Below are positions 6,896 through 22,964 of a stretch of DNA of 33,950 nucleotides, piece after piece. The translations under genes were made by a program, and so were the position numbers. Within the stretch, counting starts at the first letter, position 1; every line of letters begins with the position of its first letter. The DNA is from Alphaproteobacteria bacterium (GTDB lineage: Bacteria; Pseudomonadota; Alphaproteobacteria; Sphingomonadales; Emcibacteraceae): NCBI GenBank assembly GCA_013152755.1, contig JAADFR010000057.1:1-33950 (forward strand), written 5' to 3'. The notes beneath the pieces are model-generated. The model did not search any database. It saw only the letters and a list, made by a program, of their open reading frames with translations, and had not been told where the DNA came from.

Positions 6896-8284
6896 ATGAT
6901 AAGAATATTTAAACATTACGTTCCAAGGTCCCTGTTTATATTGGGGGTGCTGGAAAGCCTTATTCTTATGGCCGCTATATGGGCAGCCCTGAATTTGCGT
7001 AATTATCAGGTTGGTTTTGAAAGGCCTGTTTTTTCACAGTATGCTGTTGAAATTTTTTCTTTTGCCTTCGTGGTTTATGTGGTCCTGCTGGCAACGGGAT
7101 TATATCAGCTTGAGGCCGGAAGGGATATGCGTGTTACGGTTATCCGTCTGGTTACAAGTCTCGGATTGTCGTTCATTTTTCTTTCCGTTGTACTTTATAT
7201 GTTACCAGACATTGAGTTATGGCGTAGTGTGATTATTATTGGTTTGTTATTCTCTTTTGTTGGTATATTGCTCAGCCGTTATATCTATATGCATGTTGTC
7301 GATTTAAAGGGGTTGAAAAGAAGGGTTCTGGTGTTGGGGGCGGGTGAAAGAGCCAAAATGGTGTATAATTGTGGCGCCATCGCATCCAACGAAGTGGAGT
7401 TCGTGGATTTTTTGCGGGTAAATGCTGCTGAAAATGTCATTGAAGATGCAAAGGACTATCAGGCAGGGCATTCCTTAAGAGAATATGTGGATCAGCAAGC
7501 GGTGCAGGAAATAGTGGTCGCCATTGAAGAAAGGCGCGGTGCGTTGCCCATTGATGAACTCCTGGATTGTAAAATGAAAGGGTGCCACATCATTGAGGCG
7601 ACGACATTTATCGAGCGGCAGTCCGGCACGGTCAGCTTGAAAAATGTAAACCCAAGCTGGATTGTATTTTCGGATGGCTTTGGCGGCGGTGGTAATCTTG
7701 ATCTTGTTCTGAAGCGTATCTTTGATGTGACGGCAAGTCTTTTGCTGTTAATTCTGAGTATGCCAATTTTAATTATTACCGCTATTCTGGTGAAAATAAC
7801 CAGCCAGGGTCCTGTTTTTTACCGACAGGAAAGGGTTGGGTTGAATGGAAAATGCTTTTATGTATTAAAATTCCGCAGCATGACTGTCGACGCGGAGGCG
7901 GACGGCGTACCCAAATGGGCGGCTAAAAATGATGTCCGGGTAACTGGGGTCGGGCGGATAATCCGGGCCTCCAGAGTTGATGAAATACCGCAGATTTTCA
8001 ATGTGTTAATTGGCAGCATGAGTTTTGTCGGGCCCAGGCCGGAACGCCCGTTTTTTGTTGGACAGCTGGAAGAAAAAATCCACCTATATAGCGAACGACA
8101 TCGGGTAAAGCCGGGCATTACAGGCTGGGCTCAGTTGAACTATCCCTACGGTGCATCAGAGGAGGATACTAAACGCAAACTGGAATATGACCTTTATTAC
8201 ATAAAAAATTACTCTTTATTTCTGGATTTCCTTATACTGATACAAACAGTTCGTGTTGTGTTGTGGCCGGATGGCGTGAGGTAA
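6896..8284 (+). CDS. TIGR03013-type XrtA/PEP-CTERM-system sugar transferase
   Basis: A 462-residue polyprenyl-phosphate sugar phosphotransferase that should load the first sugar of the exopolysaccharide repeat onto undecaprenyl phosphate at the inner membrane. Four or five N-terminal transmembrane segments (about 12-125) lead into a CoA-binding-like domain (RRVLVLGAGERAKMVYNCG), then a further helix (SLLLLILSMPILIITAILV) and the bacterial sugar transferase domain with FYRQERVGLNGKCFYVLKFR, VDEIPQIFNVL and MSFVGPRPERPFFV. The N-terminus (IFKHYVPRSLFILG) is what I recall for the PEP-CTERM-associated TIGR03013 group, and the neighbours prsK, prsR and prsT agree. It is first in the operon, about 120 bases after a sigma-54 promoter; prsK starts 10 bases after its stop. 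Confidence 0.9.
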   Translation: MIRIFKHYVPRSLFILGVLESLILMAAIWAALNLRNYQVGFERPVFSQYAVEIFSFAFVVYVVLLATGLYQLEAGRDMRVTVIRLVTSLGLSFIFLSVVLYMLPDIELWRSVIIIGLLFSFVGILLSRYIYMHVVDLKGLKRRVLVLGAGERAKMVYNCGAIASNEVEFVDFLRVNAAENVIEDAKDYQAGHSLREYVDQQAVQEIVVAIEERRGALPIDELLDCKMKGCHIIEATTFIERQSGTVSLKNVNPSWIVFSDGFGGGGNLDLVLKRIFDVTASLLLLILSMPILIITAILVKITSQGPVFYRQERVGLNGKCFYVLKFRSMTVDAEADGVPKWAAKNDVRVTGVGRIIRASRVDEIPQIFNVLIGSMSFVGPRPERPFFVGQLEEKIHLYSERHRVKPGITGWAQLNYPYGASEEDTKRKLEYDLYYIKNYSLFLDFLILIQTVRVVLWPDGVR

Positions 8285-8294
8285 GGCGGATTTA

Positions 8295-10412
8295 ATGGAA
8301 ATTGGATTAGGTAATATAGGTTTTTTAACCTTTGGGCTGGCTGGGTTATCCTATGCGGTATTGGCGATTTTCCTTGTTTTCAAGGGACAGAACCGTCACG
8401 AGAACCTGTGGCTGACCGGGGCCGTTATAATCAGTGCTATTTGGCTGGTTGCTACGGCGGCGGCTTTTTCCGGCTTTCGCCCAATAATATATTTTTTGCC
8501 TTTTCTGGAAGTCCTGCGCGGGGCAACATGGATTGCCTTCTTTACGGTTTTGCTGTCCCGGATATGGACAATGCAGGGAAATGAGAAACATGCCTATAAT
8601 CTGAAATTAGCCCTTTTTGTTTTCCTGGGGGCAATTTTACTTATCAGTCTGATGCAAACCAGCTATCTTCTTGGATATACAAGCCTTCAGATTACTGGCG
8701 GCTTTAACGTATATCGCAACCTTATCATCTGTATCATCATCTTTTTGCTGGTTGAGAATCTCTATCGCAATTCCGCAGAGGAGGGGCGATGGGGGATTAA
8801 GCTTTTATTGCTCGCGGTAGCTGGCCTGTATATATATGATTTTCTTTTGTATGCGGATAGAATTTTATTCACCGCGATCGGGCAGAAACTGTTTGAAGCA
8901 CGCGGTATGGTGAATTTCCTTATTGTGCCTATTCTGGCCATTGCGGTTGCCAGAAACCCCACATGGAAGTTAAACATTAAAGTATCCCGGAAGATGGCTT
9001 TTCATACCATCACTCTGATTGGTACAGGTGCTTATTTAATTGGTATGTCGGCGGCGGGATATTTCTTGCAGAATTACGGCGGAAAATGGGGAAATATACT
9101 ACAGATTACCTTCATTCTTGCGGCTTTGCTGGGGTTGGTGATTCTCATATCCTCCGGAAAGTTCAGAGCCCTCACCCAAGTGCTTTTGACAAAACATTTT
9201 TTTCAGTATCGTTATGATTATCGTGAAGAATGGCTTAAATTTATCAGCACCATATCCGCAACGGGGGAGCATTATGACCTCAGGGAACGTGTTATCAAGG
9301 CGCTTGCGGATGTGATGGACAGTTCCGGGGGGGCTTTGTGGTTGTGTGAGCAACCAGATATTTACCAGTTGGCGGCCAAATGGAACTTTCAGTTTGATGC
9401 GGAAAATGAGCTCTTGTCCGAGGATCAATTCATCAGCTTTCTTGAGCGGGAAGAATGGATTGTTGATCTGAACAAGGAAAGAGATGGGGGTAGATCAAAG
9501 CATAAGGATTTGCTGACACCGGAATGGTTGCTGGGCAATGCCAAATTCTGGCTTGTTCTACCATTAATTCATTTGGGAAAGCTTGTGGGTTTTGTCGTTT
9601 TGCTTCAACCGCGTGTGAAGAGTAGCCTGAATTGGGAAAGCCGGGACTTGTTGAAAACCATAGGGCGGCAAACGGCCAGCTATCTGGCGGAGCAAATTGC
9701 AGAAATGGCTCTTGCAGAATCCCGTGAATTTGATTCTTTTAATCGAAAATTTGCTTTTGTCGTTCATGATATTAAAAATTTAACCAGCCAGTTGTCACTC
9801 ATTGTGAAGAATGCGGAGAAATATGCCGATAATCCGGAATTTCAAAAGGACATGATATTAACGATTCAGGATTCTGTGGCTAAAATGAATAACCTGCTTT
9901 CCCGAATTACGGTTGTGCAGGAACCCTCTCTGGAGAAGGTGGATGACAGCCTCAATATCGGCAAGATGATGAAGGAAATAGTACGGGATTACCATCATGG
10001 CGGTTTGAATATTACGTATGAGGGCAAGGGGGATGGTATTGATGTTTATGCGGATGCGGAAAGCCTTAAGACAATTTTTATGCATCTTATCGAGAATGCC
10101 CGTGAGGCTTGTGTCGAGGATGATATTGATATTAAACTTGACCTGTCTCGTAAAGGGGCGTTTGCTCTTATTAAAGTGAGCGACAATGGTCATGGGATGG
10201 AACAGGATTTCATTCATAATGAGCTGTTCAGGCCCTTTAGATCTACCAAAGAGAACGGATATGGCATTGGGGCCTATGAAAGCCGGGAAATGATAAAACG
10301 TCTGGGGGGCCGATTGGTGGTAAAGAGTGAAAAAAATGTTGGAACGGTTATGAAAGTGTACTTGCGTTTGGTGAGTGACGATAATGAGAGCTTAGGCGCA
10401 GGGGAAAAATAA
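8295..10412 (+). CDS. prsK: PEP-CTERM system sensor histidine kinase PrsK
   Basis: A 705-residue membrane sensor kinase. The N-terminal third is highly hydrophobic (about eight helices, residues 8-290), followed by a GAF-like sensor segment (about 320-470), a dimerisation/phosphoacceptor helix with FVVHDIKNL (His near residue 490) and an HATPase domain with LIENAREAC (N box), DNGHGM (G1) and GYGIGAYESREMIKRLGG (G2). This is the known architecture of PrsK, partner of the sigma-54 response regulator PrsR in bacteria carrying exosortase and PEP-CTERM proteins. prsR begins one base after its stop, which supports the pairing. The signal sensed is unknown. Confidence 0.93.
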   Translation: MEIGLGNIGFLTFGLAGLSYAVLAIFLVFKGQNRHENLWLTGAVIISAIWLVATAAAFSGFRPIIYFLPFLEVLRGATWIAFFTVLLSRIWTMQGNEKHAYNLKLALFVFLGAILLISLMQTSYLLGYTSLQITGGFNVYRNLIICIIIFLLVENLYRNSAEEGRWGIKLLLLAVAGLYIYDFLLYADRILFTAIGQKLFEARGMVNFLIVPILAIAVARNPTWKLNIKVSRKMAFHTITLIGTGAYLIGMSAAGYFLQNYGGKWGNILQITFILAALLGLVILISSGKFRALTQVLLTKHFFQYRYDYREEWLKFISTISATGEHYDLRERVIKALADVMDSSGGALWLCEQPDIYQLAAKWNFQFDAENELLSEDQFISFLEREEWIVDLNKERDGGRSKHKDLLTPEWLLGNAKFWLVLPLIHLGKLVGFVVLLQPRVKSSLNWESRDLLKTIGRQTASYLAEQIAEMALAESREFDSFNRKFAFVVHDIKNLTSQLSLIVKNAEKYADNPEFQKDMILTIQDSVAKMNNLLSRITVVQEPSLEKVDDSLNIGKMMKEIVRDYHHGGLNITYEGKGDGIDVYADAESLKTIFMHLIENAREACVEDDIDIKLDLSRKGAFALIKVSDNGHGMEQDFIHNELFRPFRSTKENGYGIGAYESREMIKRLGGRLVVKSEKNVGTVMKVYLRLVSDDNESLGAGEK

Positions 10413-10413
10413 T

Positions 10414-11769
10414 ATGACAAAAAAAATAAGAAGCTTGCTCGTGGTTGAGGATGACCCGGGCCTTCAGCGGCAATATAAATGGAATTTCGAAAATTATAAT
10501 ACCACCATTGCCGGGACGCGGGAAGAAGCCATTGCGTTTTTTAAAAAAGAAAAGCCGGCGGTTGTGACCCTTGACCTTGGGTTGCCGCCTGACCCTGATG
10601 GCACTTCGGAAGGTTTCGCCACATTGGAAGAAATTCTTAAAATCGCCCCCAATACAAAAATCATTGTGGCCAGTGGTCATGGCACACATGAAAGTGCTTT
10701 GAAAGCCATTGCCATGGGGGCCTATGATTTTTATCAGAAACCGGTTGATCCGGATCAGCTTGGACTGATTGTAGAGCGGGCATTCAGGCTATATGATCTG
10801 GAAGAAGAAAACCTGCGTCTGTCCCAAAATAACAAGGCTTCTGGCTTTCAGGGACTGATTACCGGCAGCCAGGATATGTATAAGGTTTGCGACATGGTAG
10901 AGCGTGTCGCCCCGGCGAATGTGACGGTTTTGTTGCTGGGGGCTAGCGGCACCGGTAAAGAACTTTTGGCCCGGGCCGTCCATAACCTCAGTGACAGAAG
11001 CCACGGTAAATTCGTTGCCATAAATTGTGCGGCCATTCCGGAAAACCTTCTTGAAAGCGAGTTATTCGGCTATGAAAAGGGGGCGTTTACCGGCGCGGTA
11101 AAACAAACCAAAGGTAAGATTGAACTGGCTGAGGGGGGAACATTGTTCCTTGATGAAATTGGCGACCTTCAATTTTCGTTGCAGGTAAAACTTCTTAGAT
11201 TTCTACAGGAGCGTGTGGTTGAACGCATCGGTGGGCGTCAGGAAATTGCCGTGGATGTTCGCGTGGTTTGTGCAACCCATCAGGATATTGAAAAAGATAT
11301 TACGGAGGGGAGATTCCGCGAAGACCTTTATTACAGGTTAAGTGAAATTGTCATCAATATTCCTTCATTGGCAGAGCGTGAAGGCGATTCTATACTTCTG
11401 GCTAAAACCTTCCTGACCAAGTTTAATGATGAACTGAAAAAACAGATTAAAGGCTTTACGCAGGATGCGCTCAGTGCCATTGCGTCCTATAACTGGCCCG
11501 GAAATGTCCGTGAACTTGAAAATCGGATTAAAAGATCTGTTATCATGTGCAACGGAAAAAAGATAACTGCAGATGATCTGGAACTAAGTCAAGGCGAGGG
11601 CGAAGCCGCTGTTTTGAACCTAAAAGCCGTGCGGGAAAATGCAGACATAAAAGCCATAAATATGGCAATGGCACAGGCCAGCGGCAATGTAAGTCAGGCT
11701 GCTAAAATATTGGGTATTAGCCGCCCGACATTTTATGGCCTGATTAAACAATATAATATAAACATATGA
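10414..11769 (+). CDS. prsR: PEP-CTERM-box response regulator PrsR, sigma-54 activator
   Basis: A 451-residue NtrC-type regulator. The receiver domain has the acidic pair (VVEDD, residues 11-14), phospho-acceptor Asp54 in VTLDLGLPPD and Lys109 in YQKPVD. The AAA+ domain has Walker A GASGTGKE (about 176), the sigma-54 contact loop GAFTGA (about 224), Walker B LFLDEIGDL and RFREDLYYRL. A Fis-type helix-turn-helix ends the protein (NVSQAAKILGISRPTFYGLI). All residues needed to activate RpoN polymerase are present. It should be phosphorylated by PrsK. Two sigma-54 promoters in this window, one before its own operon and one before a PEP-CTERM gene, are likely targets. Confidence 0.95.
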   Translation: MTKKIRSLLVVEDDPGLQRQYKWNFENYNTTIAGTREEAIAFFKKEKPAVVTLDLGLPPDPDGTSEGFATLEEILKIAPNTKIIVASGHGTHESALKAIAMGAYDFYQKPVDPDQLGLIVERAFRLYDLEEENLRLSQNNKASGFQGLITGSQDMYKVCDMVERVAPANVTVLLLGASGTGKELLARAVHNLSDRSHGKFVAINCAAIPENLLESELFGYEKGAFTGAVKQTKGKIELAEGGTLFLDEIGDLQFSLQVKLLRFLQERVVERIGGRQEIAVDVRVVCATHQDIEKDITEGRFREDLYYRLSEIVINIPSLAEREGDSILLAKTFLTKFNDELKKQIKGFTQDALSAIASYNWPGNVRELENRIKRSVIMCNGKKITADDLELSQGEGEAAVLNLKAVRENADIKAINMAMAQASGNVSQAAKILGISRPTFYGLIKQYNINI

Positions 11770-11800: not shown

Positions 11801-14581
11801 ATGAACAATCTGGCAATAATATCAATCGCATTGATTTTGGGAACATCATTTCCTGCATATGCGGCAGTCGGTAGTGACAAGAGTAGTGCCTATAAGAGGG
11901 ATGCGGATAGCTATCTTAAAAAAGGCGATGTGAAAGCAGCTATTATTCAGTTGAAAAACGCGGTTGTTGCCGACCCTAAAAATCCTGAAAACAGGATTGC
12001 ACTGGCGGACTTATACCTTCAGGTCAACAATGCCCTTTCAGCCGAAAAAGAATATTTACGCGCGATTGACCTTGGCATGGAACCATCAAAGGTCATTGTC
12101 AACCTCAGCAAGGCCCGCCTGCTTCAACGTCAGTTTCAAAAGGTATTGGATACATTGCATGAAGAGGATGTCAGTGATGATGTGAAGGGGGAAGTATATC
12201 TAATTATCGGGAATGCTTATCAGGGATTGGGTGATCTGAACAAGGCCCTTGAATATTTTGAAAAGGGTGAAGGTGTTAAAGGCAAGAATGATAAAATTTC
12301 CATTGCCATTGCACAGATATATTATTTCCAGAAAAATATAGAAAAAGCAGAACAGAAGGTCGATGAAGTTCTTTCCCTCAACCCAAAAAATGTCAAAGGC
12401 CTTATCCTAAAGGGTGAGTTGGTCAATGCGGCTTCCGGTCCGGAAAAATCCTTGCCATATTTTCAGCAGGCATTGGAATATAGTCCCCGGAATATTCCGG
12501 CATTGTTTAAAGTCGCCGCCGTATTATTTGATTTGAAACGCTCAGATGAGGCTTTGGAAAAACTTGAGGCAATATTTACAATAGTGCCCAATCATCCCTT
12601 GGCCAATTATTTGTCAGCGGTTATTTACGCCCAAAAGAATGAAATGGTAAAAGCAGAAGAGTATCTTGATGCTTCTGGTTCGGCACTGGATGATTTTCCC
12701 GGCGCATTGATATTAAGAGGGGTGATGAATTACTCTAAACAGAGCTATGCACAGGCTATTTATTTTCTGGATAAACTGATCAAGATTACGCCGGATAATA
12801 TCGTAGCCCGGCGGTTGTTGGGCGCCTCTCTTTTGCGTCAGAATGAAGCGGAACAGGCCATTAATATTTTGATGCCTATTGTACAAAAGGGACAGGCAGG
12901 CTCCGTTGTTTATGCCTTGTTGGGCAGTGCCAACATGAAGATTGGTGATTTCGAAAAAGGGACTGATTTTTTTCAGAAAGCCGTGGATATTAAACCCGGA
13001 GAAAGTAAGCTGAAGACCCAATTGGCCCTAAGCAAGCTGGCCGGTGGGGATGCGGAAGCAGCTCAGGCAAATCTGCAGGAGGTTCTGGAAAAAGACCCAA
13101 ACTCAAAACAGGCTGCGGTATTTATGACCCTGATTTCTTTACGGGAAAAGAAGTATGATGAGGCTATTGTCAATGCGGACAGGCTGCTTAAACAATCTGC
13201 GGTAAATCCTATCGGCTATAACCTGAAGGGTGTTGCCTATAAGGAAATGGGGAAAATGCAGGAAGCCAGGGCACAATTTGAAAAGGCCTTGAAAGTTTCT
13301 CCTAATTATCATTCCGCCTCAATGAATCTGGCTAAGCTTGAAGCACAGGTCGGTAATGTTGAGCAGGCAGTTAAAATCTATCAGGATATTCTTAAAGCGG
13401 ATGAAAATCATGAAGGTGCGCTTATGGCATTGGCTGGCTATTACAGAAGTAAGAAAGATTTTGCCAAGACTGAGGAATATTATCAGCGGGCTATCACAGC
13501 TGCGCCGAATAATATACGAAGCCGGATAAAATTTTCTGAGTTCTTCCTGAGCCAAAAGAAACTTGACCGGGCTAAATCTGTTGTACAGCAGTTGGTTTCT
13601 GACTTTCCCGATCTAGCGGCGGGTTATGAGGCGAACGGGAATATTGATCTAATGCGCAAGGATGTGGCCTCTGCCGTGGTAAATTTTGAACGGATGGCGG
13701 CGCTGCTTGGTGATAATGCCGGGGCATTTCAAATATTGGGCCGGGCGCAATTGAGAGCAGGCGATCCGATGGCGGCTAAAAAAAGCTTTACCAAAGCCCT
13801 GTCAATGACTGACAAGAAAGCACCAATATTGATGGACCTTGCAGGATTGGAATCAAGTCAGAAAAATTATACCGAGGCTCAGGCTTATCTTGATCAATTA
13901 AAGAAAATAGATGAAAAAAGCCCCGCTCCATATGTATTGGAGGGACGCTTGCTCGGTCTGCAAAAGAAATATGCCAAGTCACTGGAAAGTTTCTTGCGGG
14001 CATCTGATCTGGGTGCGGAAGGTAGTCCGTTTACGGTTGATCTGACTCGAGCCTATATTAATATGGAACAAGCTGATAAGGCGGTAGCTATAATGCAGTC
14101 GTGGCTGTTGAAGAAAAAAGATGACCTTGCGGTACGTCATATATTGGCTGGTCATTATCTTCAGGAAAAAGTCTATGATAAATCTATAAATCAGTATGAA
14201 ATTATTTTGAGCATGAGTGCCAAAAATCCGATTGCCCTGAATAATATCGCCTGGCTCTATAGTCAGACCGGGCAGGATAAGAAAGCTCTGCTGACTGCGG
14301 AAAAGTCCTATAACTTATTCCCGGATGCGGCGCCGTTCATTGATACATATGCCTGGATACTGGTGGAGCAGGGGCAGAATGAAAAGGGATTGGCGTTGTT
14401 ACAAAAAGCCGTGGCGAAAGCACCAAAAATGGTGGAAATTCGTTACCATCTGGCGGTGGCTCTCAATAATGCGGGCAAAAAGACGACAGCGCGTAAGGAG
14501 CTTGAAACCGTCATTTCAAGCGGTGAAGTATTCTCTGAGATAGACAAAGCGCGCAAGCTGATGAGAGAATTATCAAAATAA
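11801..14581 (+). CDS. prsT: PEP-CTERM system TPR-repeat protein PrsT
   Basis: A 926-residue exported protein made almost wholly of tetratricopeptide repeats (over twenty visible, with recurring LG-A-A---KAL---P patterns such as AIIQLKNAVVADPKNPENRI). PrsT is the established companion of PrsK/PrsR, presumed to be a periplasmic scaffold for export or assembly of exopolysaccharide or PEP-CTERM proteins. The N-terminus MNNLAIISIALILGTSFPAYA is a signal peptide with a likely signal peptidase I cut after AYA. The family model describes a lipoprotein, yet no lipobox Cys is present here, so this copy seems soluble in the periplasm. The ATG at 11801 has a clear upstream AAGGAAGAA ribosome site, 31 bases after prsR. 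Confidence 0.92.
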   Translation: MNNLAIISIALILGTSFPAYAAVGSDKSSAYKRDADSYLKKGDVKAAIIQLKNAVVADPKNPENRIALADLYLQVNNALSAEKEYLRAIDLGMEPSKVIVNLSKARLLQRQFQKVLDTLHEEDVSDDVKGEVYLIIGNAYQGLGDLNKALEYFEKGEGVKGKNDKISIAIAQIYYFQKNIEKAEQKVDEVLSLNPKNVKGLILKGELVNAASGPEKSLPYFQQALEYSPRNIPALFKVAAVLFDLKRSDEALEKLEAIFTIVPNHPLANYLSAVIYAQKNEMVKAEEYLDASGSALDDFPGALILRGVMNYSKQSYAQAIYFLDKLIKITPDNIVARRLLGASLLRQNEAEQAINILMPIVQKGQAGSVVYALLGSANMKIGDFEKGTDFFQKAVDIKPGESKLKTQLALSKLAGGDAEAAQANLQEVLEKDPNSKQAAVFMTLISLREKKYDEAIVNADRLLKQSAVNPIGYNLKGVAYKEMGKMQEARAQFEKALKVSPNYHSASMNLAKLEAQVGNVEQAVKIYQDILKADENHEGALMALAGYYRSKKDFAKTEEYYQRAITAAPNNIRSRIKFSEFFLSQKKLDRAKSVVQQLVSDFPDLAAGYEANGNIDLMRKDVASAVVNFERMAALLGDNAGAFQILGRAQLRAGDPMAAKKSFTKALSMTDKKAPILMDLAGLESSQKNYTEAQAYLDQLKKIDEKSPAPYVLEGRLLGLQKKYAKSLESFLRASDLGAEGSPFTVDLTRAYINMEQADKAVAIMQSWLLKKKDDLAVRHILAGHYLQEKVYDKSINQYEIILSMSAKNPIALNNIAWLYSQTGQDKKALLTAEKSYNLFPDAAPFIDTYAWILVEQGQNEKGLALLQKAVAKAPKMVEIRYHLAVALNNAGKKTTARKELETVISSGEVFSEIDKARKLMRELSK

Positions 14582-14602: not shown

Positions 14603-15799
14603 TTGGAAATTCTTTTTCTGAGCCATCGTTTTCCTTATCCACCCACACGCGGGGACAAGATCAGATCATTTAATATGGTCAAGCATCTTCATGAGGCGGG
14701 GCATAAAGTAACCGTTGCCTCACTTGCCCGTACGGCAGAGGAGGCGGCGGATTGTCAGGGTATTCGGGACTATTGTGATGATTACGTCATTTGCGAGGTC
14801 AGGAACCCGGTTCAGGCGGTGCGCATGGGGCTTCGCCTGCTCACATCTGAACCATCGTCCATGGGATTCTTCTATTCGTCAAAATTACAAAAAGAGGTTA
14901 ACCGCCTACTGTCGGAAAAGAATTTTGATCTGATTGTGGTTTTCAGTTCCACGGCGGCGCAATATGTGTCCCATGTGACGGATATTCCAAAATTTCTGGA
15001 TTTTTGTGATATGGATAGCCAGAAATGGCTGGCCTATTCCGCCTTCAAAAAATGGCCTATCAGCATGGGCTATCGTTTGGAGGGCGGCAAGCTGGAACGG
15101 GAAGAAAAGAAGATCTGTCATCAATTTGACCTGTGTAGCTGTGCCACTGATTTTGAGGTTGATACCTTGGACGGTTATGGCACCGGTGTGGCCAGCGCCT
15201 TTTTTCCCAACGGGGTTGATTTTGATTTTTTCACGCCGGGAGAGGGCGATTATCCACGTCACAGCATCAGCTTTGTCGGGCGAATGGATTATTTCCCCAA
15301 TGAAGAATGTGTCCTGTCCTTCTGTGAGCAGATTTTTCCTCAATTACAGGCGAAATACCCCGATGTTACCTTCACGGTTATCGGAGCCTGTCCCCCGTCC
15401 AATATCATGGCTCTAAATGACATGCCGGGGGTGACGGTTACGGGCACAGTGGATGATATTCGTACTTACGTGCGCAATTCTGCGGTAATGGTAACGCCCC
15501 TTGAGATTGCCCGGGGAACCCAGAATAAGATTCTGGAGGGCATGGCCATGGGCGTGCCGGTCATCAGCAGCCGCACGGCGGCGCGGGGGGTTGATGCGGT
15601 GGTGGGGGAACATATCCTTGCGGCCACAACGCCCGATGAATATGTGGCCCATATATCAAGATTATTCGATGATGAGGGGGAACGTGACCGATTGGCAAAG
15701 GCCGGACGTGAGCGGGTAACAACTCATCATAACTGGCCCCGGGCCATGTCTTTGTTTAATGAGGCCATCGAAAGATGCCTCACTATTGCTAAAGGGTAG
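14603..15799 (+). CDS. TIGR03087-type PEP-CTERM/XrtA-associated glycosyltransferase
   Basis: A 398-residue GT4-like glycosyltransferase. Its start MEILFLSHRFPYPPTRGDKI is the hallmark N-terminus of the sugar transferase group found with exosortase/EpsH systems (TIGR03087). The C-terminal nucleotide-sugar binding half shows SFVGRMDYFPNEECVL, VTPLEIARGTQNKILEGMAM and GVPVISS with the E-x7-E-type region. The only reasonable start is TTG at 14603; the nearby ATG (14588) is followed at once by TGA, and the ribosome site is weak. It follows prsT by 21 bases and so probably belongs to the same transcript. It should add a sugar to the lipid-linked repeat on the cytosolic side. Confidence 0.88.
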   Translation: MEILFLSHRFPYPPTRGDKIRSFNMVKHLHEAGHKVTVASLARTAEEAADCQGIRDYCDDYVICEVRNPVQAVRMGLRLLTSEPSSMGFFYSSKLQKEVNRLLSEKNFDLIVVFSSTAAQYVSHVTDIPKFLDFCDMDSQKWLAYSAFKKWPISMGYRLEGGKLEREEKKICHQFDLCSCATDFEVDTLDGYGTGVASAFFPNGVDFDFFTPGEGDYPRHSISFVGRMDYFPNEECVLSFCEQIFPQLQAKYPDVTFTVIGACPPSNIMALNDMPGVTVTGTVDDIRTYVRNSAVMVTPLEIARGTQNKILEGMAMGVPVISSRTAARGVDAVVGEHILAATTPDEYVAHISRLFDDEGERDRLAKAGRERVTTHHNWPRAMSLFNEAIERCLTIAKG

Positions 15800-15807
15800 T
15801 AGATTTA

Positions 15808-17016
15808 ATGCGCATATTGCATGTATTTGACCATTCGATCCCGCTCCATAGCGGCTATACCTTTCGCAGTTATCAGATTTTGCGGGAGCAAAGGGCGTTG
15901 GGCATCGAAACTCTGCATGTGACTGGTATCAAGCATCTGAATCCTGAGGGGCCAGAGGATGTGGTGGAGGGCTTGAAATTTTACCGGACAACGAATTATA
16001 ACAGGCTGCTGGCCAAGCTCCCGGTGATTGGTCAGTATGAGGTGGTCAGAAGCCTGAAAAAGCGGCTTCGGCAAATTTTAAAGACTGAGAAAGTGGATGT
16101 TATTCAGGCCCATTCGCCCATGCTGAACGGTATGGCGGCTGTGGCCGTGGGCAAAGAATTTAATATCCCGGTTCTCTATGAAATTCGCGCTTTCTGGGAA
16201 GATGCGGCTGTTAGCCTTGGTACCAGCAAGGAAGGTGATTTACGTTACCGCCTGTCCAAGGCCATGGAGACCAAAGTGGCGCGTGCGGCAGATGCGGTAA
16301 CGGTAATTTGTGACGGCCTGAAACAGGATTTGATTTCACGGGGTATTTCGGCGGAAAAAATAACTCTGATCCCCAATGCGGTGGATATATCAAAATTTTC
16401 CGGCCCGGAAAAGCCCGATCCGAAACTCAGAACAAAATTGGGTCTGGACGGCAAGACAACGCTTGGCTTTATCGGGTCATTCTATGATTATGAGGGGCTG
16501 GAAATTCTGCTGGAAAGTCTGCCGGTCATTATCAGGCAGGTGCCGGATGTAAAGCTCCTGCTGGTGGGCGGCGGCCCGGTGGACGAGGAGTTGAAAGAAC
16601 AGGCCAAATTATTCGGTATAGAGGACCATGTCATGTTTACCGGACGGGTGCCCCATGACAAGGTACAGGATTATTACAATCAGGTGGATATTTTTGTCTA
16701 CCCACGCAAGAAAATGCGCCTGACGGATCTGGTGACACCGCTTAAACCGCTTGAGGCCATGGCCCAGCATAAGCTAGTGGCGGCATCAGATATTGGCGGA
16801 CATAATGAGCTGATTGAAGATGGTAAAACCGGGGTGTTGTTCAAGCCGGATAATTCTCTTGCGCTGGCCCGGACTATCATTGAGCTGCTCAACAAGCGCG
16901 AAAGCTGGCCTGAAATGATCGCAGGCGGGCGCAAATATGTTGAGGATGTTCGGAACTGGAAAAATTCCATTGCCAATTATCCGGCTGTTTTTGACAGAAT
17001 AGTTAAGAAGCCATAA
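15808..17016 (+). CDS. TIGR04063-type exosortase A-associated glycosyltransferase
   Basis: A 402-residue GT4 glycosyltransferase beginning MRILHVFDHSIPLHSGYTFR, which I recognise as the conserved N-terminus of the PEP-CTERM/exosortase A-associated group (Daro_2409 type). The GT-B C-terminal domain is clear: LGFIGSFYDYEGLEILLESL, LLLVGGGPVDEEL, VPHDKVQDYYNQVDIFVYPR, and PLKPLEAMAQHKLVAASDIG with the conserved E. It begins 8 bases after the previous stop. Its 3' end overlaps by 14 bases the 3' end of the converging gene 17003-18157. It should extend the exopolysaccharide repeat unit. Confidence 0.9.
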   Translation: MRILHVFDHSIPLHSGYTFRSYQILREQRALGIETLHVTGIKHLNPEGPEDVVEGLKFYRTTNYNRLLAKLPVIGQYEVVRSLKKRLRQILKTEKVDVIQAHSPMLNGMAAVAVGKEFNIPVLYEIRAFWEDAAVSLGTSKEGDLRYRLSKAMETKVARAADAVTVICDGLKQDLISRGISAEKITLIPNAVDISKFSGPEKPDPKLRTKLGLDGKTTLGFIGSFYDYEGLEILLESLPVIIRQVPDVKLLLVGGGPVDEELKEQAKLFGIEDHVMFTGRVPHDKVQDYYNQVDIFVYPRKKMRLTDLVTPLKPLEAMAQHKLVAASDIGGHNELIEDGKTGVLFKPDNSLALARTIIELLNKRESWPEMIAGGRKYVEDVRNWKNSIANYPAVFDRIVKKP

Positions 17017-18157
17017 CGCCCCAGATTTTGGCATAGGCCGCAAACATGCGGCTCTGATCATAAGTCTTCCTGACATGTCGTTTATTGTTACCACCGATTT
17101 CCTGCCTGAGCGGTTCATTTGCGGTCAATTCTGTGAGCGCTGCGGCAAAGGCCTGATCATCTCCGGCTGCTGTGATGAAAGGTTTGTTTGCGGTGGAGAC
17201 AATGAATTTCACATCGCCCACGTCCAGCCCGACAACGGGCAAGCCTGCGGCCATGGCCTGATTGACGGAATTGGGCATCTGTTCCGTGTCAGACGACAGC
17301 GCATAAATATCCAGATGACCCAGAGCCATGGCCGGATTATCAATATGGCCGGCAAGATATATCCTGTCCTGCAAGCCATAACCTGTGATCATCTGTTCCA
17401 GTTTTGACCGTTCATTGCCTTCGCCCATAATGATCAGGCTGGTCTTTTGGTCAGGGTGTGCCTGAACAAGATGATTAAAGGCGGTAATCAGGCGCGGCAG
17501 ATTCTTTTCCGGACGTAACGGCGTCATGGTGCCAATGGTAATTTCGCCTGCTTGTTTGGTAAAATGGGGAATGATGCCTTCCTGCGGGGGGGAGGCATAA
17601 AGGTCACAATCCACACCGTTCGGGGTATAGAGGATCTTGTGATCTGGAATTTTCCAGTCCGAAGCACATATTCTGACCAAAGTGTTGGAGGGCACTACAA
17701 TGCCCTCAATATTACGCAGGGCAAGGCGGCGGAACCAGTTTCGGCGACCGATAGTCCCATTGGCCTCTTCCGGCCCAAAACCGCTTTCCAGATGGAAATG
17801 GCGACAGATGGGGTTGACGCTGTTGGCCATGGCCCATTCCGTTGACCCCCAGTTATAGGTCAGCAGTAAATCCGGCTGCATTTCGCGGAGAATTTTACGG
17901 TAATGCCATAGACGTTTGAGCATATTGCCCTCAGCGGCCCCTCCAATATCCGGGATCTCATAGATGACATTCTTCTTCAAACGCGATTCGCAGGTGTAAA
18001 TACCGTCCGTTGACAATAGGGAATGACGCGCCAAAGGCCCGAAATGATTCATCAGGTAAGAAATGCGAATGGGGACGCCACCATGGGCAAAAGACGGAAT
18101 AACATGAAAAATATGTGGTACATCAGCCGTTTTTTTGTCTATTACTGACTTTGTCAT
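17003..18157 (-). CDS. GT4 family glycosyltransferase (possibly TIGR03088/stp2-like)
   Basis: A glycosyltransferase with an N-terminal acceptor domain (FHVIPSFAHGGVPIRISYLM, YNWGSTEWAMANSVNPICRH) and a C-terminal donor domain (GTMTPLRPEKNLPRLITAFN, LIIMGEGNERSKLEQMI, LSSDTEQMPNSVNQAMAAGL). The EX7E-type motif appears as EQMPNSVNQAM. The track's start at 18352 would overlap the divergent gene; starting at 18157 (MTKSVIDKK) gives 384 residues, a normal length, with a purine-rich AAAGAAAA upstream. MVAQKQ at 18184 is an alternative. Probably part of the exopolysaccharide pathway, since it converges on the cluster with overlapping 3' ends. Membership in the TIGR03088 group is possible but not certain. 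Confidence 0.85.
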   Translation of the reverse strand: MTKSVIDKKTADVPHIFHVIPSFAHGGVPIRISYLMNHFGPLARHSLLSTDGIYTCESRLKKNVIYEIPDIGGAAEGNMLKRLWHYRKILREMQPDLLLTYNWGSTEWAMANSVNPICRHFHLESGFGPEEANGTIGRRNWFRRLALRNIEGIVVPSNTLVRICASDWKIPDHKILYTPNGVDCDLYASPPQEGIIPHFTKQAGEITIGTMTPLRPEKNLPRLITAFNHLVQAHPDQKTSLIIMGEGNERSKLEQMITGYGLQDRIYLAGHIDNPAMALGHLDIYALSSDTEQMPNSVNQAMAAGLPVVGLDVGDVKFIVSTANKPFITAAGDDQAFAAALTELTANEPLRQEIGGNNKRHVRKTYDQSRMFAAYAKIWGVMAS

Positions 18158-18302
18158 TTTTTTCTTTTGTTTTTGTGCGACCATAAAGTGGCATATTAAC
18201 TTTATTTTGTTAAAATAGTAGAAATTTACATATTTTTCAAAGAAATATGGCAATAAGCTGTTTTCCCGGGAACAGGGAAAATAAAACAGGAGGGTATTGC
18301 TT

Positions 18303-19880
18303 GTGTCGAGAAATTTAACATTCTTTATTTTAGGACTGACGGCCGCCGTCATAGCCTATATTTTTGCACCGTCATTGATCGGGGTGCTGGAATTTCTGCT
18401 TTCGGAAAGACTGCCCCGCGAATTTACGCGCCTGATGCAGAATAACGACCTTGTGGTATTAGCCGGATATGTCAGCCTGTTTGGCCTGTCATTCTTCCTG
18501 TTGTATCTTATCTTTCCGGTTGCCTATGTCTGGTATCATATCAATTCCGCAAAGGGGATCGTTGGTGAATTGCCTTTGATCAGTAATGGAATCAAGCGAA
18601 CAGACAAAAAAACTTTTCTGGGAAAATTAAAGGGTCTGGGCTTTATTGAAAGACTCGCTGAGGCCTATGGGCCTTATCTCATTCAGGGACCGGAAGAAGA
18701 AGTAAAACCGGAGAACCTGAAAAAACTGCGTTTGACAGGCCCCCGCGCCAAGATTGAAAAAATTGTCATTGCCCCTGTAAGTGCCGCTGTTCCGGCAGAG
18801 TCCATATTTAATGTGGAGAGTATGGTGAGTGATAACCTGCGGCTAGGCTTTTTCACTATTTTTGCCCGCCTGATGGTTGGGGCAGGGGTGGTCTGTCTGG
18901 CAATTTCGTTAATTTCATTTTCTATTGTAAAAGGAGAGGACGGTCAGACCTTGCTTGCTGCCCTGCAACCGGGGCTGGTGTCTTTGCTCTATTTATTAAT
19001 AGCCGCCGTGATTTTGTCAGGGGGGAGCCATTTGGTTAGCCTGGGACTATCTCATAAGGCCGGGGAATTTGCCCGAATGATTAATGGCCTGTTTTACCAA
19101 AATAACTGGCAGCAGGATTTGGCCCGTATTACGACCCACCTTGAAGGGAGCACGGATAAATTTGAAACTATTCTGAAAGACAGCCTTCATAAACCGCTGA
19201 AAGAAATTTCTACGGCGGTTAAATCTCTGTCGGTGGAACAGGAAAAGAAACTGGATAATATCCTGTCAAAGACGCTGGAGAATTTTGCCGTAAATATGGT
19301 GAAGAAAACAGGTGCCGATACTGTGGCCCTGAACAAAGCGCTGAAAGAGGCGAACCTGTCAGCGGAACAGATGAAGAAGCAATTTACCGGCGCCAATGCG
19401 GACTTTGCCAAACAGATGGATAAACAGTCGGCCGCCATAGCGAAACATTTGTCTGACATGCAGAAGGTTTTGGCTAACAGTGAAAAGGCAACGCAGGCCG
19501 GGGCAGAAAAAATAATATCCAAGCTGGCAACACAGGTTGAAAATACCCACAAGAAATTCGGGGATTACATTGAGAGCAACCTGAAAAGGCTGGATGAAAA
19601 ACAAAAGAAAATAGAAAATACGACCAGCGACAAGGACGGTATTCTGAAAGACCTGCATGATACCGCAAAGGATCTTGCGACCATTTCAAATGCCTCCGGG
19701 ATTTTGCTGGAACGGTTTATTTCCCTGTCCGTTGAACTGGATGTAGTGCTCAAGAATATTCAGGAAAATAATATTGGCCAAGATAAGGGGGATGCGCAGA
19801 AGCGCGACAAACTTAAATCGGCCATGATGAAGCTGAAGAAAATCAACAAGGATAAAATTGGCGAATTGCCGGATATGTAA
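18303..19880 (+). CDS. Membrane protein with long coiled coil, distant TolQ/ExbB/ZorA-like layout
   Basis: Not assigned to a named family. Track residue numbers: hydrophobic helices at about 7-35, 52-80, 184-210 and 220-242, then about 270 residues of charged, Ala/Lys/Glu/Leu-rich helix predicted as coiled coil (EQEKKLDNILSKTLENFAVN, EKIISKLATQVENTHKKF). The segment VPAESIFNVESMVSDNLRLG before the third helix, the short loop between helices three and four (LLAALQPGLVSLLYLL) and the helical tail recall the MotA/TolQ/ExbB group, especially ZorA-like proteins, but the usual GxLGTxxGL helix is replaced by GAGVVCLAISLISF and no partner B subunit is adjacent. The start is GTG 18303, 9 bases after AGGAGG (18288-18293); the track's TTG at 18297 is too close to that site. 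It is divergent from the glycosyltransferase. Confidence 0.75.
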   Translation: MSRNLTFFILGLTAAVIAYIFAPSLIGVLEFLLSERLPREFTRLMQNNDLVVLAGYVSLFGLSFFLLYLIFPVAYVWYHINSAKGIVGELPLISNGIKRTDKKTFLGKLKGLGFIERLAEAYGPYLIQGPEEEVKPENLKKLRLTGPRAKIEKIVIAPVSAAVPAESIFNVESMVSDNLRLGFFTIFARLMVGAGVVCLAISLISFSIVKGEDGQTLLAALQPGLVSLLYLLIAAVILSGGSHLVSLGLSHKAGEFARMINGLFYQNNWQQDLARITTHLEGSTDKFETILKDSLHKPLKEISTAVKSLSVEQEKKLDNILSKTLENFAVNMVKKTGADTVALNKALKEANLSAEQMKKQFTGANADFAKQMDKQSAAIAKHLSDMQKVLANSEKATQAGAEKIISKLATQVENTHKKFGDYIESNLKRLDEKQKKIENTTSDKDGILKDLHDTAKDLATISNASGILLERFISLSVELDVVLKNIQENNIGQDKGDAQKRDKLKSAMMKLKKINKDKIGELPDM

Positions 19881-19891
19881 AGGCGTAGAAT

Positions 19892-20707
19892 TTACAGAAA
19901 TCTGGCCAGCACTTTGCGGTAATTCCGGCTGACCTGTAATTCCGCACCGCTTTCCAGCGTGATCTGGTATTTACCACCGCTGGTCGGTTGTAGCTCGGCG
20001 ACCTTGGACATATTGATGATAGTTGAGCGGTGCACCCGTTGAAATAATTCCGGGTTCAGCCTTTTTTCCATATTTTTCATGGTTTCGCGCAGGATATGGG
20101 TCTTGTCGCCCACATGAAGGCACATATAATCTCCGGCGGCATCAATCCATTCAATAGTTGATACATCCACCCGGGTAATTTGGCCCCTGTCTTTGATATT
20201 CAGGTGGGTTTCAAAATTATTTTCCAGCGGCAATTCCTGCGCACTTATGATTTCTGAAAGCTCAAATGTGGGGGGATTATCCAGTGAGCGGATCAGATTT
20301 ATCAACCGGGCATTCTGTTCAATGGTAATGCGTTCCTGAATACTTTCCCTGACCTTTGCAATTGCCTCTAACAGGCGGTCTTCCTCAATCGGTTTTAACA
20401 GATAATCCAGCGCGTGGGTTTCAAAAGCTTTGATGGCATATTGGTCAAAGGCAGTGGCGAAAATAATTAGCGGCATTTCTTCTCTGGCCAGTGCCTTGAC
20501 CACGGCAAAGCCGTCAAAGCCCGGCATTTGAATATCCAGAAAAACGAGGGCCGGGCGTTCTGCACGGATTTTTTTAATGGCTTCCCGGCCATTGGCACAG
20601 GTGCCAATAATCTCTATATCATCAAATTCCTTTAAGCGTAACTCAAGCCCGCGCAAGGCAAGCGGTTCATCATCGACCAGTAATGTTTTTATTTTCTTGT
20701 CTGTCAT
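19892..20707 (-). CDS. LytTR-family response regulator
   Basis: A 271-residue AlgR/LytR-type regulator. The receiver domain has VDDEP (residues 11-15), phosphoacceptor Asp58 in LVFLDIQMPGFDG and the conserved Lys in YLLKPIEEDRL. A linker follows and then a C-terminal LytTR DNA-binding domain (about 165-271) with VSTIEWIDAAGDYMCLHVGD, FQRVHRSTIINMSKVAEL and LQVSRNYRKVL. It binds DNA and regulates transcription when phosphorylated, presumably by the kinase encoded 35 bases upstream. GGAGG precedes its ATG. It converges on the coiled-coil membrane protein with 11 bases between stops. Targets unknown; the neighbouring surface-polysaccharide genes are possible. Confidence 0.93.
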   Translation of the reverse strand: MTDKKIKTLLVDDEPLALRGLELRLKEFDDIEIIGTCANGREAIKKIRAERPALVFLDIQMPGFDGFAVVKALAREEMPLIIFATAFDQYAIKAFETHALDYLLKPIEEDRLLEAIAKVRESIQERITIEQNARLINLIRSLDNPPTFELSEIISAQELPLENNFETHLNIKDRGQITRVDVSTIEWIDAAGDYMCLHVGDKTHILRETMKNMEKRLNPELFQRVHRSTIINMSKVAELQPTSGGKYQITLESGAELQVSRNYRKVLARFL

Positions 20708-20742
20708 TTTGCTGCCTCCACATTTGGCATTTTTTTTATTTT

Positions 20743-21831
20743 TTACGTATCGGACGTATATTCACAGGGCAGGGTAATCCTGATGGTGACCCCTTTGTTT
20801 TTCTTGCTTGTGATGTCGAAGCTACTTTCCTTGGGATAAAGCTTTGCCAATCGTTCTCGCGTATTTGCGATTCCAACGCCGCTTGATTTCTGATCAGTTT
20901 CTCCGGGATTATCTTCGCTAAAACCCGGCCCGTCATCGGACAGGGTAATGACCAGTTTCTTATTTTTGATTTCAGCTTTGAGGGTAATCGTCCCGCCCTC
21001 TATCTGTGGGTTAATGGCATATTTTATGGAATTTTCCACAAGGGGCTGCAACAGCAGATTCGGAATTTGGGCCGACCCGGCCTCTTCTGAAATATCAAAG
21101 ACAATTTTCAGCCGTTCCTGAAAACGGACCCGTTCAATATCCAGATACAGGGACAGGGCATATACTTCTTCCTCAAGCGTTGTTTTCTGCATAGGCTGGC
21201 TGACCAGGCTAAACCTCAGGAAGGCACTCAGTTTGGTGAGCATGCTGTTGGCTTCCTTGGCCTGCTTGTCCAAAACCAACGTGGAGATGGCATTGAGGGT
21301 ATTAAACAGGAAATGAGGGTTCAATTGATAGCGCAGCATCTTGAGCTGTGCCTGATGAGCCTGGGCGGCGGCAGCAAGATACATCTCTTTTTGCTGTTGG
21401 AGCTGAAAATGATTGTTGATGATAAAATACAGACCGGACCAGGCCATAAGAACAAAGGTGTCATACAGGGTCCGGTACAGAAAACCAAGGCCCTGCATAT
21501 TCCAGTCAGGATCATACAGCTGATTCATGGACCATACCTCCACAAAGGAAAATAGCATGGAGCTTATCAGGATGCAGATCGTAACCGAGAGCAACAGCAT
21601 GAGCGGTGACATATCAGAGCGGCGCAGGAACTGATATATATGGCGCAAACCAATGGTAATCCAGAAACCGCCGATAACCCCCATCATAACGGCATATATA
21701 AATTCCGGTTTTTCACCTAGGGCATAGGCATTGAGCGTTCGGGCCGTGCAATAGGCTATCCAGCCCAGAATCTGAAGGCTCCAGAATAATTTTTCCTTAT
21801 GTTCGATAAGGTTTTTGAGTTTTCTATCCAA
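20743..21831 (-). CDS. LytS/YehU-type sensor histidine kinase
   Basis: A 362-residue membrane kinase with four N-terminal transmembrane helices (about 15-35, 45-65, 77-98, 118-138), a short coiled coil and the His_kinase (LytS-type) domain whose phosphoacceptor is His173 in YQLNPHFLFNTLNAIS. The HATPase part shows LLLQPLVENSIKYAI, LSDDGPGF and GVGIANTRERLAKLY. This kinase class partners LytTR regulators, and the regulator gene follows immediately, so the two form one two-component system. No extracellular sensor domain is present; sensing probably occurs within the membrane helices. Confidence 0.92.
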   Translation of the reverse strand: MDRKLKNLIEHKEKLFWSLQILGWIAYCTARTLNAYALGEKPEFIYAVMMGVIGGFWITIGLRHIYQFLRRSDMSPLMLLLSVTICILISSMLFSFVEVWSMNQLYDPDWNMQGLGFLYRTLYDTFVLMAWSGLYFIINNHFQLQQQKEMYLAAAAQAHQAQLKMLRYQLNPHFLFNTLNAISTLVLDKQAKEANSMLTKLSAFLRFSLVSQPMQKTTLEEEVYALSLYLDIERVRFQERLKIVFDISEEAGSAQIPNLLLQPLVENSIKYAINPQIEGGTITLKAEIKNKKLVITLSDDGPGFSEDNPGETDQKSSGVGIANTRERLAKLYPKESSFDITSKKNKGVTIRITLPCEYTSDT

Positions 21832-22286: not shown

Positions 22287-22964
22287 ATGATGTTTAAAAC
22301 CAATAACCCAACAAAAATATTTCTTATATTTCTTGTGATGTCTTTTTTTGGGCGTGACGCTTATTCACAATCTTTGGAGGCCCAGTTCATTGGGAATGAA
22401 GCCTTTCGTATTACCGATGGCAAGACTTTTCTGATGACGGATTTTCCCTATAAATCCGGGGCCTATAATTATATGAAGTATGAATTTGATTTTTCCAGCA
22501 CCACGGGAACGGTATTGTCACTGATCACCCATCGGCATGATGACCATTTCGCGCCGGTATTATTTGCCAATCAGGCTTGGTATATTCTGGGCCCTGCCGA
22601 AGTGACGGTGGGCTTGCCACAAAGCAGACTGTTGCCATTTTCAGAGAAGGTCACCTTTGAGCCGCTTACCATATGGCCCAAAAAAAGCACCCATGGGAAT
22701 ACGGAACATTATTCCTATCTGGTGGATTGGAGTGGCCGGAAATTGTTTTTCACTGGTGATACTGAGGATCTGGTGGTTCTGAAAGACCTGCCGGAGCTTG
22801 ACGCCCTGTTCATTACGCCCTGGTTTTACCGAAAGGCAAAGCTGAATGATGCTTTGCCGGAGAGTAAAAAGGTCATTATCTACCACCATATGGAAAAAGA
22901 TATTGTCCCTGAATGCCCGGGCTGTATCATACCGGTGCAAAATGACTATATTGAAATAGACTAG
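22287..22964 (+). CDS. Exported MBL-fold (metallo-beta-lactamase-like) hydrolase
   Basis: A 225-residue protein with an N-terminal signal peptide (KIFLIFLVMSFFGRDAYS) and a metallo-beta-lactamase fold similar to UlaG/PhnP-like MBL proteins. The metal-binding motif reads THRHDDHF (H-x-H-D-D-H type is retained as HRHDDH), a later His occurs in KKSTHGNTEHYSYL, and LFFTGDTEDL carries the bridging Asp. The final metal His may be in IIYHHMEKD. The signal peptide suggests periplasmic action, which is unusual for UlaG relatives. AGGGGA precedes the start. First gene of a run with the alpha/beta hydrolase, mgtE and DUF1489. Substrate unknown. Confidence 0.82.
   Translation: MMFKTNNPTKIFLIFLVMSFFGRDAYSQSLEAQFIGNEAFRITDGKTFLMTDFPYKSGAYNYMKYEFDFSSTTGTVLSLITHRHDDHFAPVLFANQAWYILGPAEVTVGLPQSRLLPFSEKVTFEPLTIWPKKSTHGNTEHYSYLVDWSGRKLFFTGDTEDLVVLKDLPELDALFITPWFYRKAKLNDALPESKKVIIYHHMEKDIVPECPGCIIPVQNDYIEID

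Follow-up and report, generated by a model that had tools for sequence, protein, structure and literature searches.

A homologue of the motor protein ZorA without its ion-path residues seems to be reused, probably as a scaffold, in a surface polysaccharide gene cluster of Alphaproteobacteria

We have identified a family of alphaproteobacterial membrane proteins whose resemblance to ZorA is true homology, reflecting shared ancestry with the ZorA-type A subunits of ion-driven 5:2 motors, yet which are not themselves ZorAs. What is new here is that the copies sit in PEP-CTERM/XrtA exopolysaccharide clusters, among PrsK/PrsR/PrsT and GT4 glycosyltransferases. A part of an ion motor thus seems to be reused in a surface polysaccharide cluster, probably as a scaffold. 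The best explanation, namely a family that has neither channel residues nor a neighboring B subunit, has kept the core and tail, and serves as a scaffold for exopolysaccharide synthesis, stands as a whole at about an even chance in our judgment.

The window, by which we mean the whole stretch of DNA that was analyzed (33,950 nucleotides), corresponds to contig C57 in a draft genome of 2.9 Mb. Its open reading frame at 18303-19880 on the forward strand, 525 codons from a GTG start at 18303 to a stop at 19880, has the coordinates first assigned to it and is a real gene. The GTG is preceded by a Shine-Dalgarno-like AGGAGGG, the start of the protein is kept among relatives as 'MSRN/MSKN', and the sole nearby alternative is an in-frame TTG at 18297. 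The gene is intact in most genomes of an Emcibacter-like genus, full length and at 48-86% identity. Nearly every Emcibacter-like relative has it, as do several further families of alphaproteobacteria. The named relatives that bear it are MAGs labelled Emcibacter sp. or Alphaproteobacteria bacterium. Features of the gene and its product are as follows.

18288..18294, forward strand: Shine-Dalgarno-like AGGAGGG before the GTG at 18303, read from the sequence
18303..19880, forward strand: ZorA-homologous protein with four transmembrane helices (TM) and a long cytoplasmic helical tail, 525 aa
18309..18401, forward strand: TM1, residues 3-33, an extra helix without ZorA counterpart (AlphaFold2 helix; the hhalign alignment to ZorA begins at residue 58)
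18447..18566, forward strand: TM2, residues 49-88, aligning with ZorA TM1 (AlphaFold, hhalign)
18567..18842, forward strand: cytoplasmic segment, residues 89-180, with F105, A119 and the PA..F motif
18789..18821, forward strand: VPAESIFNVES linker, residues 163-173, homologous to ZorA 'APSASFFSEQQ'
18843..18929, forward strand: TM3, residues 181-209, equivalent to ZorA TM2, with L199 in place of ZorA T147
18951..19085, forward strand: TM4, residues 217-261, equivalent to ZorA TM3, with L228 in place of ZorA S184
19152..19859, forward strand: cytoplasmic helical tail, residues 284-519, with ZorA-like periodicity
19866..19877, forward strand: C-terminal LPDM (of 26 complete members, 19 have LP-x-[L/M] close to the end)

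The PADLOC and NCBIfam ZorA models match the window protein weakly, and single-sequence matches to PDB, PADLOC and NCBIfam entries fall almost wholly on the coiled coil. Because coiled-coil matches alone are weak evidence, a profile comparison was run on the membrane core only, with reversed and unrelated controls. Without the tail, the core aligned with ZorA over 198 columns (hhalign 99.3%, E=1.7e-20). The value was 99.0% when two members from outside the order were left out and 95.8% (E=6.8e-9) for the Emcibacter-like genus alone; reversed ZorA gave 1.7% and an unrelated family (glycosyltransferase) 0.1%. The 19-member family profile matched the ZorA PDB (cryo-EM) chains at E=9.5e-43 over profile positions 53-473, which span core and tail. 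Members in two genomes (G158 and G262) match the NCBIfam ZorA models over the core with E=2.2e-22 to 2.7e-26, although their scores stay far under the curated cut-offs; the window protein likewise falls short of them, at 35.5 bits (cut-off 250) and 25.1 bits (cut-off 750). A Pfam search with the window protein returned only chance coiled-coil matches, with no PF01618 at E≤10. Coiled-coil-only matches in four genomes (G019, G063, G104 and G155) were excluded from membership.

When the AlphaFold model was compared with the PDB using Foldseek, the six best matches were to ZorA (8qyk, E=1.7e-6; 8qyd, 8qyh, 8qyy; 8vvn), followed by ExbB and TolQ. TM-scores were ~0.5 with large rmsd, a moderate fold match, so this evidence is supportive and not exact. 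An unrooted tree of the core separates the XrtA-locus family and ZorA into two groups with one branch between them (99/94 support). The preliminary description had proposed a distant ZorA/TolQ-like relation, to be checked by HHpred-type comparison, with a new subfamily as one option; it had also named, as outcomes that would speak against it, a prediction without ExbB-like packing or assignment to an unrelated family. The core alignment and the ZorA, ExbB and TolQ fold matches uphold the relation, and neither adverse outcome arose.

For residues 1-305, AlphaFold (shallow alignment of 11 sequences) returned a model with mean pLDDT 77 and pTM 0.68, in which helices at 3-33, 49-88, 181-209 and 217-261 are the four predicted TM, with a mixed cytoplasmic segment between TM2 and TM3. 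The full-length model has the same four TM, then helices from ~284 to 519 at low confidence (tail pLDDT ~45). Four membrane helices had been expected from the first reading, as had the VPAESIFNVES linker ahead of the close helix pair; the linker lies immediately N-terminal of TM3 and is among the best conserved stretches of the protein. Two other features needed correction. The long tail is present, but it is nearer 235 residues than the 270 of coiled coil first described, since the AlphaFold tail helices span ~284 to 519. An extra N-terminal helix is likewise present, but there is one relative to ZorA and not two, because TM2 aligns with ZorA TM1. The hydrophobic period of the tail is 3.56-3.68 in most members versus 3.54-3.68 in ZorA tails, and the periodicity signal exceeds 985 of 1000 shuffles for the window protein and 1000 of 1000 for three relatives. 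The LP-x-[L/M] C-terminus, missing from one genus, is a candidate binding peptide at the tip of the putative rod.

A structure paper on Zorya places the ion site at a ring of ZorA Ser/Thr residues that surrounds the ZorB Asp, and describes a Thr plus Ser ring around the B-subunit Asp for both ZorAB and MotAB (PMC11890865). At the column of E. coli ZorA T147, all seven true ZorAs have Thr and none of the 27 family members does (F, L, A, I, V); at the column of S184, Ser is present in 7/7 true ZorAs and 0/27 family members (L, F, A). The window protein has L199 and L228 at these columns. The channel motif that had been called degenerate is indeed so, with the GT motif and the Ser lost in 27/27. 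A Ser or Thr does occur one residue before the S184 column in 10/27 members and, should the alignment be shifted by one position, could take over part of the channel work. A B-type protein with an N-terminal helix is encoded beside no family copy, while the same scan finds ZorB at 5/5 Zorya loci; with these positive controls, the earlier remark that no B-subunit gene lies next to the gene stands. ZorC, ZorD and ZorE were found near family members in no genome, the neighbors being XrtA/EPS genes. The true ZorAs of G188, G441, G229 and plasmids are accompanied by B and effector genes.

Because the Thr/Ser ring of the ion path is lost and no B subunit is encoded nearby, ion conduction or rotation would most likely be absent. 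It had been suggested that the protein is stator-like or a tether; the former is unlikely because the channel residues are lost, and tethering fits better. An ion-driven motor subunit, with its B subunit encoded elsewhere and other polar residues (e.g. S202, S205, S226, Q222) carrying ions to power polymer export or envelope work, is in our view unlikely. In its favor, fold and topology agree with those of motor A subunits, the Emcibacter-like genus keeps S202 and S205 without exception, and the genome itself encodes several OmpA-domain and MotB-like proteins. A B subunit could also be encoded elsewhere. However, the Thr and Ser ring is gone from every member, none has a B neighbor, and the B-type proteins seen in this genome sit with, or plausibly belong to, A subunits of their own.

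Two further sets of loci were noted during this survey. What appear to be Zorya systems, with ZorA, ZorB and genes downstream of these, are present at L110, L111 and L112 in three alphaproteobacterial genomes and were found because the family profile reaches them. On another contig of the same genome as the window (G000:C185, ~41400-44200; L054, L045, L055), a separate 428-aa MotA/ExbB-like protein with an intact GLLGT motif is directly followed by a 367-aa OmpA-domain protein, and the two likely make a complete A/B pair.

The following genes all lie to the left of the ZorA-like gene in the window.

6896..8284, forward strand: XrtA-system glycosylphosphotransferase (TIGR03013, NCBIfam)
8295..10412, forward strand: PrsK, XrtA/PEP-CTERM histidine kinase (TIGR02916)
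10414..11769, forward strand: PrsR, PEP-CTERM-box response regulator (TIGR02915)
11801..14581, forward strand: PrsT, XrtA/PEP-CTERM TPR protein (TIGR02917)
14603..15799, forward strand: stp1, PEP-CTERM/XrtA glycosyltransferase (TIGR03087)
15808..17016, forward strand: stp3, PEP-CTERM/XrtA glycosyltransferase (TIGR04063)
17003..18352, reverse strand: divergent GT4 glycosyltransferase, stp2-like (TIGR03088, below cut-off); the first ATG is probably not its true start, which would lie further downstream, near 18217 or later

This setting is conserved. A GT4 gene lies no more than two genes from the ZorA-like gene in 18/18 loci, which cover nine genera and four families of the order, and PrsT, PrsR or PrsK is in view at most of them. 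Outside the order, the G158 copy is 3.4 kb from PrsT. A location in an XrtA/PEP-CTERM cluster was seen also for the copies in G054 and G037. The search for conserved neighbors that had been proposed at the outset yielded the GT4 genes, and the exopolysaccharide link guessed at then is supported by this consistent placement. The stp2-like glycosyltransferase subfamily tracks the ZorA-like gene better than stp1 does, scoring at least 454 bits in gene-bearing genomes unless contig ends break it and at most 392 bits elsewhere, G021 excepted.

Other genes around the family copies were also recorded. At 19892-21831 of the window, a LytTR response regulator and a LytS-like histidine kinase adjoin the gene, an arrangement found throughout the Emcibacter-like genus and not in other genera. 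A 225-aa protein at 22287-22964 of the window has no NCBIfam or Pfam match and is kept in two neighboring genomes. In other alphaproteobacterial families, a polysaccharide-deacetylase-like gene (L036:6064-7074 and L109:10248-11258, both with a 'VDTEEEFDWSKP'-type start) lies directly upstream of the ZorA-like gene in the same direction; it matches no NCBIfam model at E≤1e-20. A search for sigma-54 promoters as a sign of PrsR control gave 14 matches versus 20 expected by chance, i.e. fewer.

The co-occurrence figures are manual counts made on the output tables. Among 151 genomes of the order, 27 carry the ZorA-like gene. PrsK scores above its cut-off in 26 of the 27, the sole exception (G082) being a fragmented assembly. 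PrsK was found in none of the 34 genomes lacking the gene in six families (f1-f5 and f8; Fisher 2e-16, kinship ignored). In the families f6 and f7, PrsK occurs in the absence of the ZorA-like gene in 86 of 90 genomes; the protein is therefore a feature of one type of XrtA locus and not of every XrtA system. A divergent 428-aa member at the same location in G054 came to light only once the one PrsK-positive genome of f5 had been inspected, and so behaves as a small prediction come true. As a marker for co-occurrence stp1 (TIGR03087) was uninformative, because it is found in 113/151 genomes.

The membrane core and the long cytoplasmic tail have been retained. By analogy with ZorA, copies of the protein would assemble into an inner-membrane ring, probably pentameric, and this ring would carry a helical rod into the cytoplasm. 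At full extension the rod would measure up to ~35 nm (235 residues x 0.15 nm). In ZorA, the tail is a bundled pentameric rod that is required for defence (PMC11890865). Since the gene is consistently located in PEP-CTERM/XrtA clusters beside GT4 glycosyltransferases, the rod would most likely be a scaffold or tether, bringing together or placing the glycosyltransferases of the cytoplasm and the machinery that makes the polymer. We infer this to be the most economical reading once the pore residues and the B subunit are gone. More tentatively, and at somewhat less than an even chance as a whole, we propose a branch of the 5:2 motor superfamily that is without channel and B subunit and is now a stand-alone membrane ring with a cytoplasmic rod, organizing exopolysaccharide synthesis in alphaproteobacteria with XrtA loci.

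The position of the gene among glycosyltransferases, together with a helical tail and two close TM helices, would also suit a polysaccharide co-polymerase-like (Wzz-like) factor that sets polymer length or export by touching the polymerase through its membrane helices. We regard this as rather improbable, since the extra-membrane helices of Wzz-type proteins are periplasmic, unlike a tail that is cytoplasmic by ZorA topology, and both sequence and fold match ZorA and not Wzz. A membrane anchor for signaling, passing on the envelope state to the adjacent LytS-like kinase/LytTR regulator or to PrsK/PrsR, is quite doubtful: the LytS/LytTR pair adjoins the gene in the genus but is not its neighbor in the remaining genera of family and order. 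Most doubtful of all is a divergent Zorya-type defence protein residing by chance in an exopolysaccharide locus, for despite the weak PADLOC and NCBIfam ZorA matches its 35.5 bits compare with a curated cut-off of 250, ZorB, ZorC, ZorD or ZorE lies near the gene in no genome, and the gene is fixed to one locus through genus and family and not patchy.

The scaffold reading bears on how these motors are understood. In descriptions of MotA/ExbB/TolQ/ZorA motors, the A subunits work together with a B subunit and an ion path. A family that lacks both, yet is conserved with its core and tail architecture intact, would show that ring and rod can serve a purpose by themselves. The family also gives PEP-CTERM/XrtA exopolysaccharide loci one more component, as yet unnamed, and it is a caution for annotation by homology, which can wrongly label such proteins as Zorya defence. 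Neither an A-only motor homologue nor such a protein in XrtA loci was found in the open-access papers searched.

Of the known systems, ZorA of the anti-phage Zorya systems (PDB 8qyd, 8qyk, 8qyy, 8vvn) shares with the family a homologous core (the PA..F linker and two channel helices) and a cytoplasmic tail of the same period, whereas the family is without equivalents of Thr147 and Ser184 and without ZorB/C/D/E, has one extra N-terminal TM, occupies exopolysaccharide loci and forms its own group in the tree. ExbB/TolQ (MotA/TolQ/ExbB proton channel family, PF01618) resemble it in overall fold by Foldseek, after ZorA, but the family has no PF01618 match and no ExbD/TolR, and has an extra TM and a long tail. 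The flagellar stator MotA, with four TM helices and a cytoplasmic segment between TM2 and TM3, is alike in topology only: there is no sequence match and no MotB, MotA is absent among the listed Foldseek matches, and the family has a tail where MotA has its torque-generating domain. As for the PEP-CTERM/XrtA (EpsH) exopolysaccharide-associated sorting system, none of its NCBIfam models matches the ZorA-like protein and the consulted portion of the founding paper names no such component (PMC1569441), while the gene lies inside the cluster of this system in the genomes examined.
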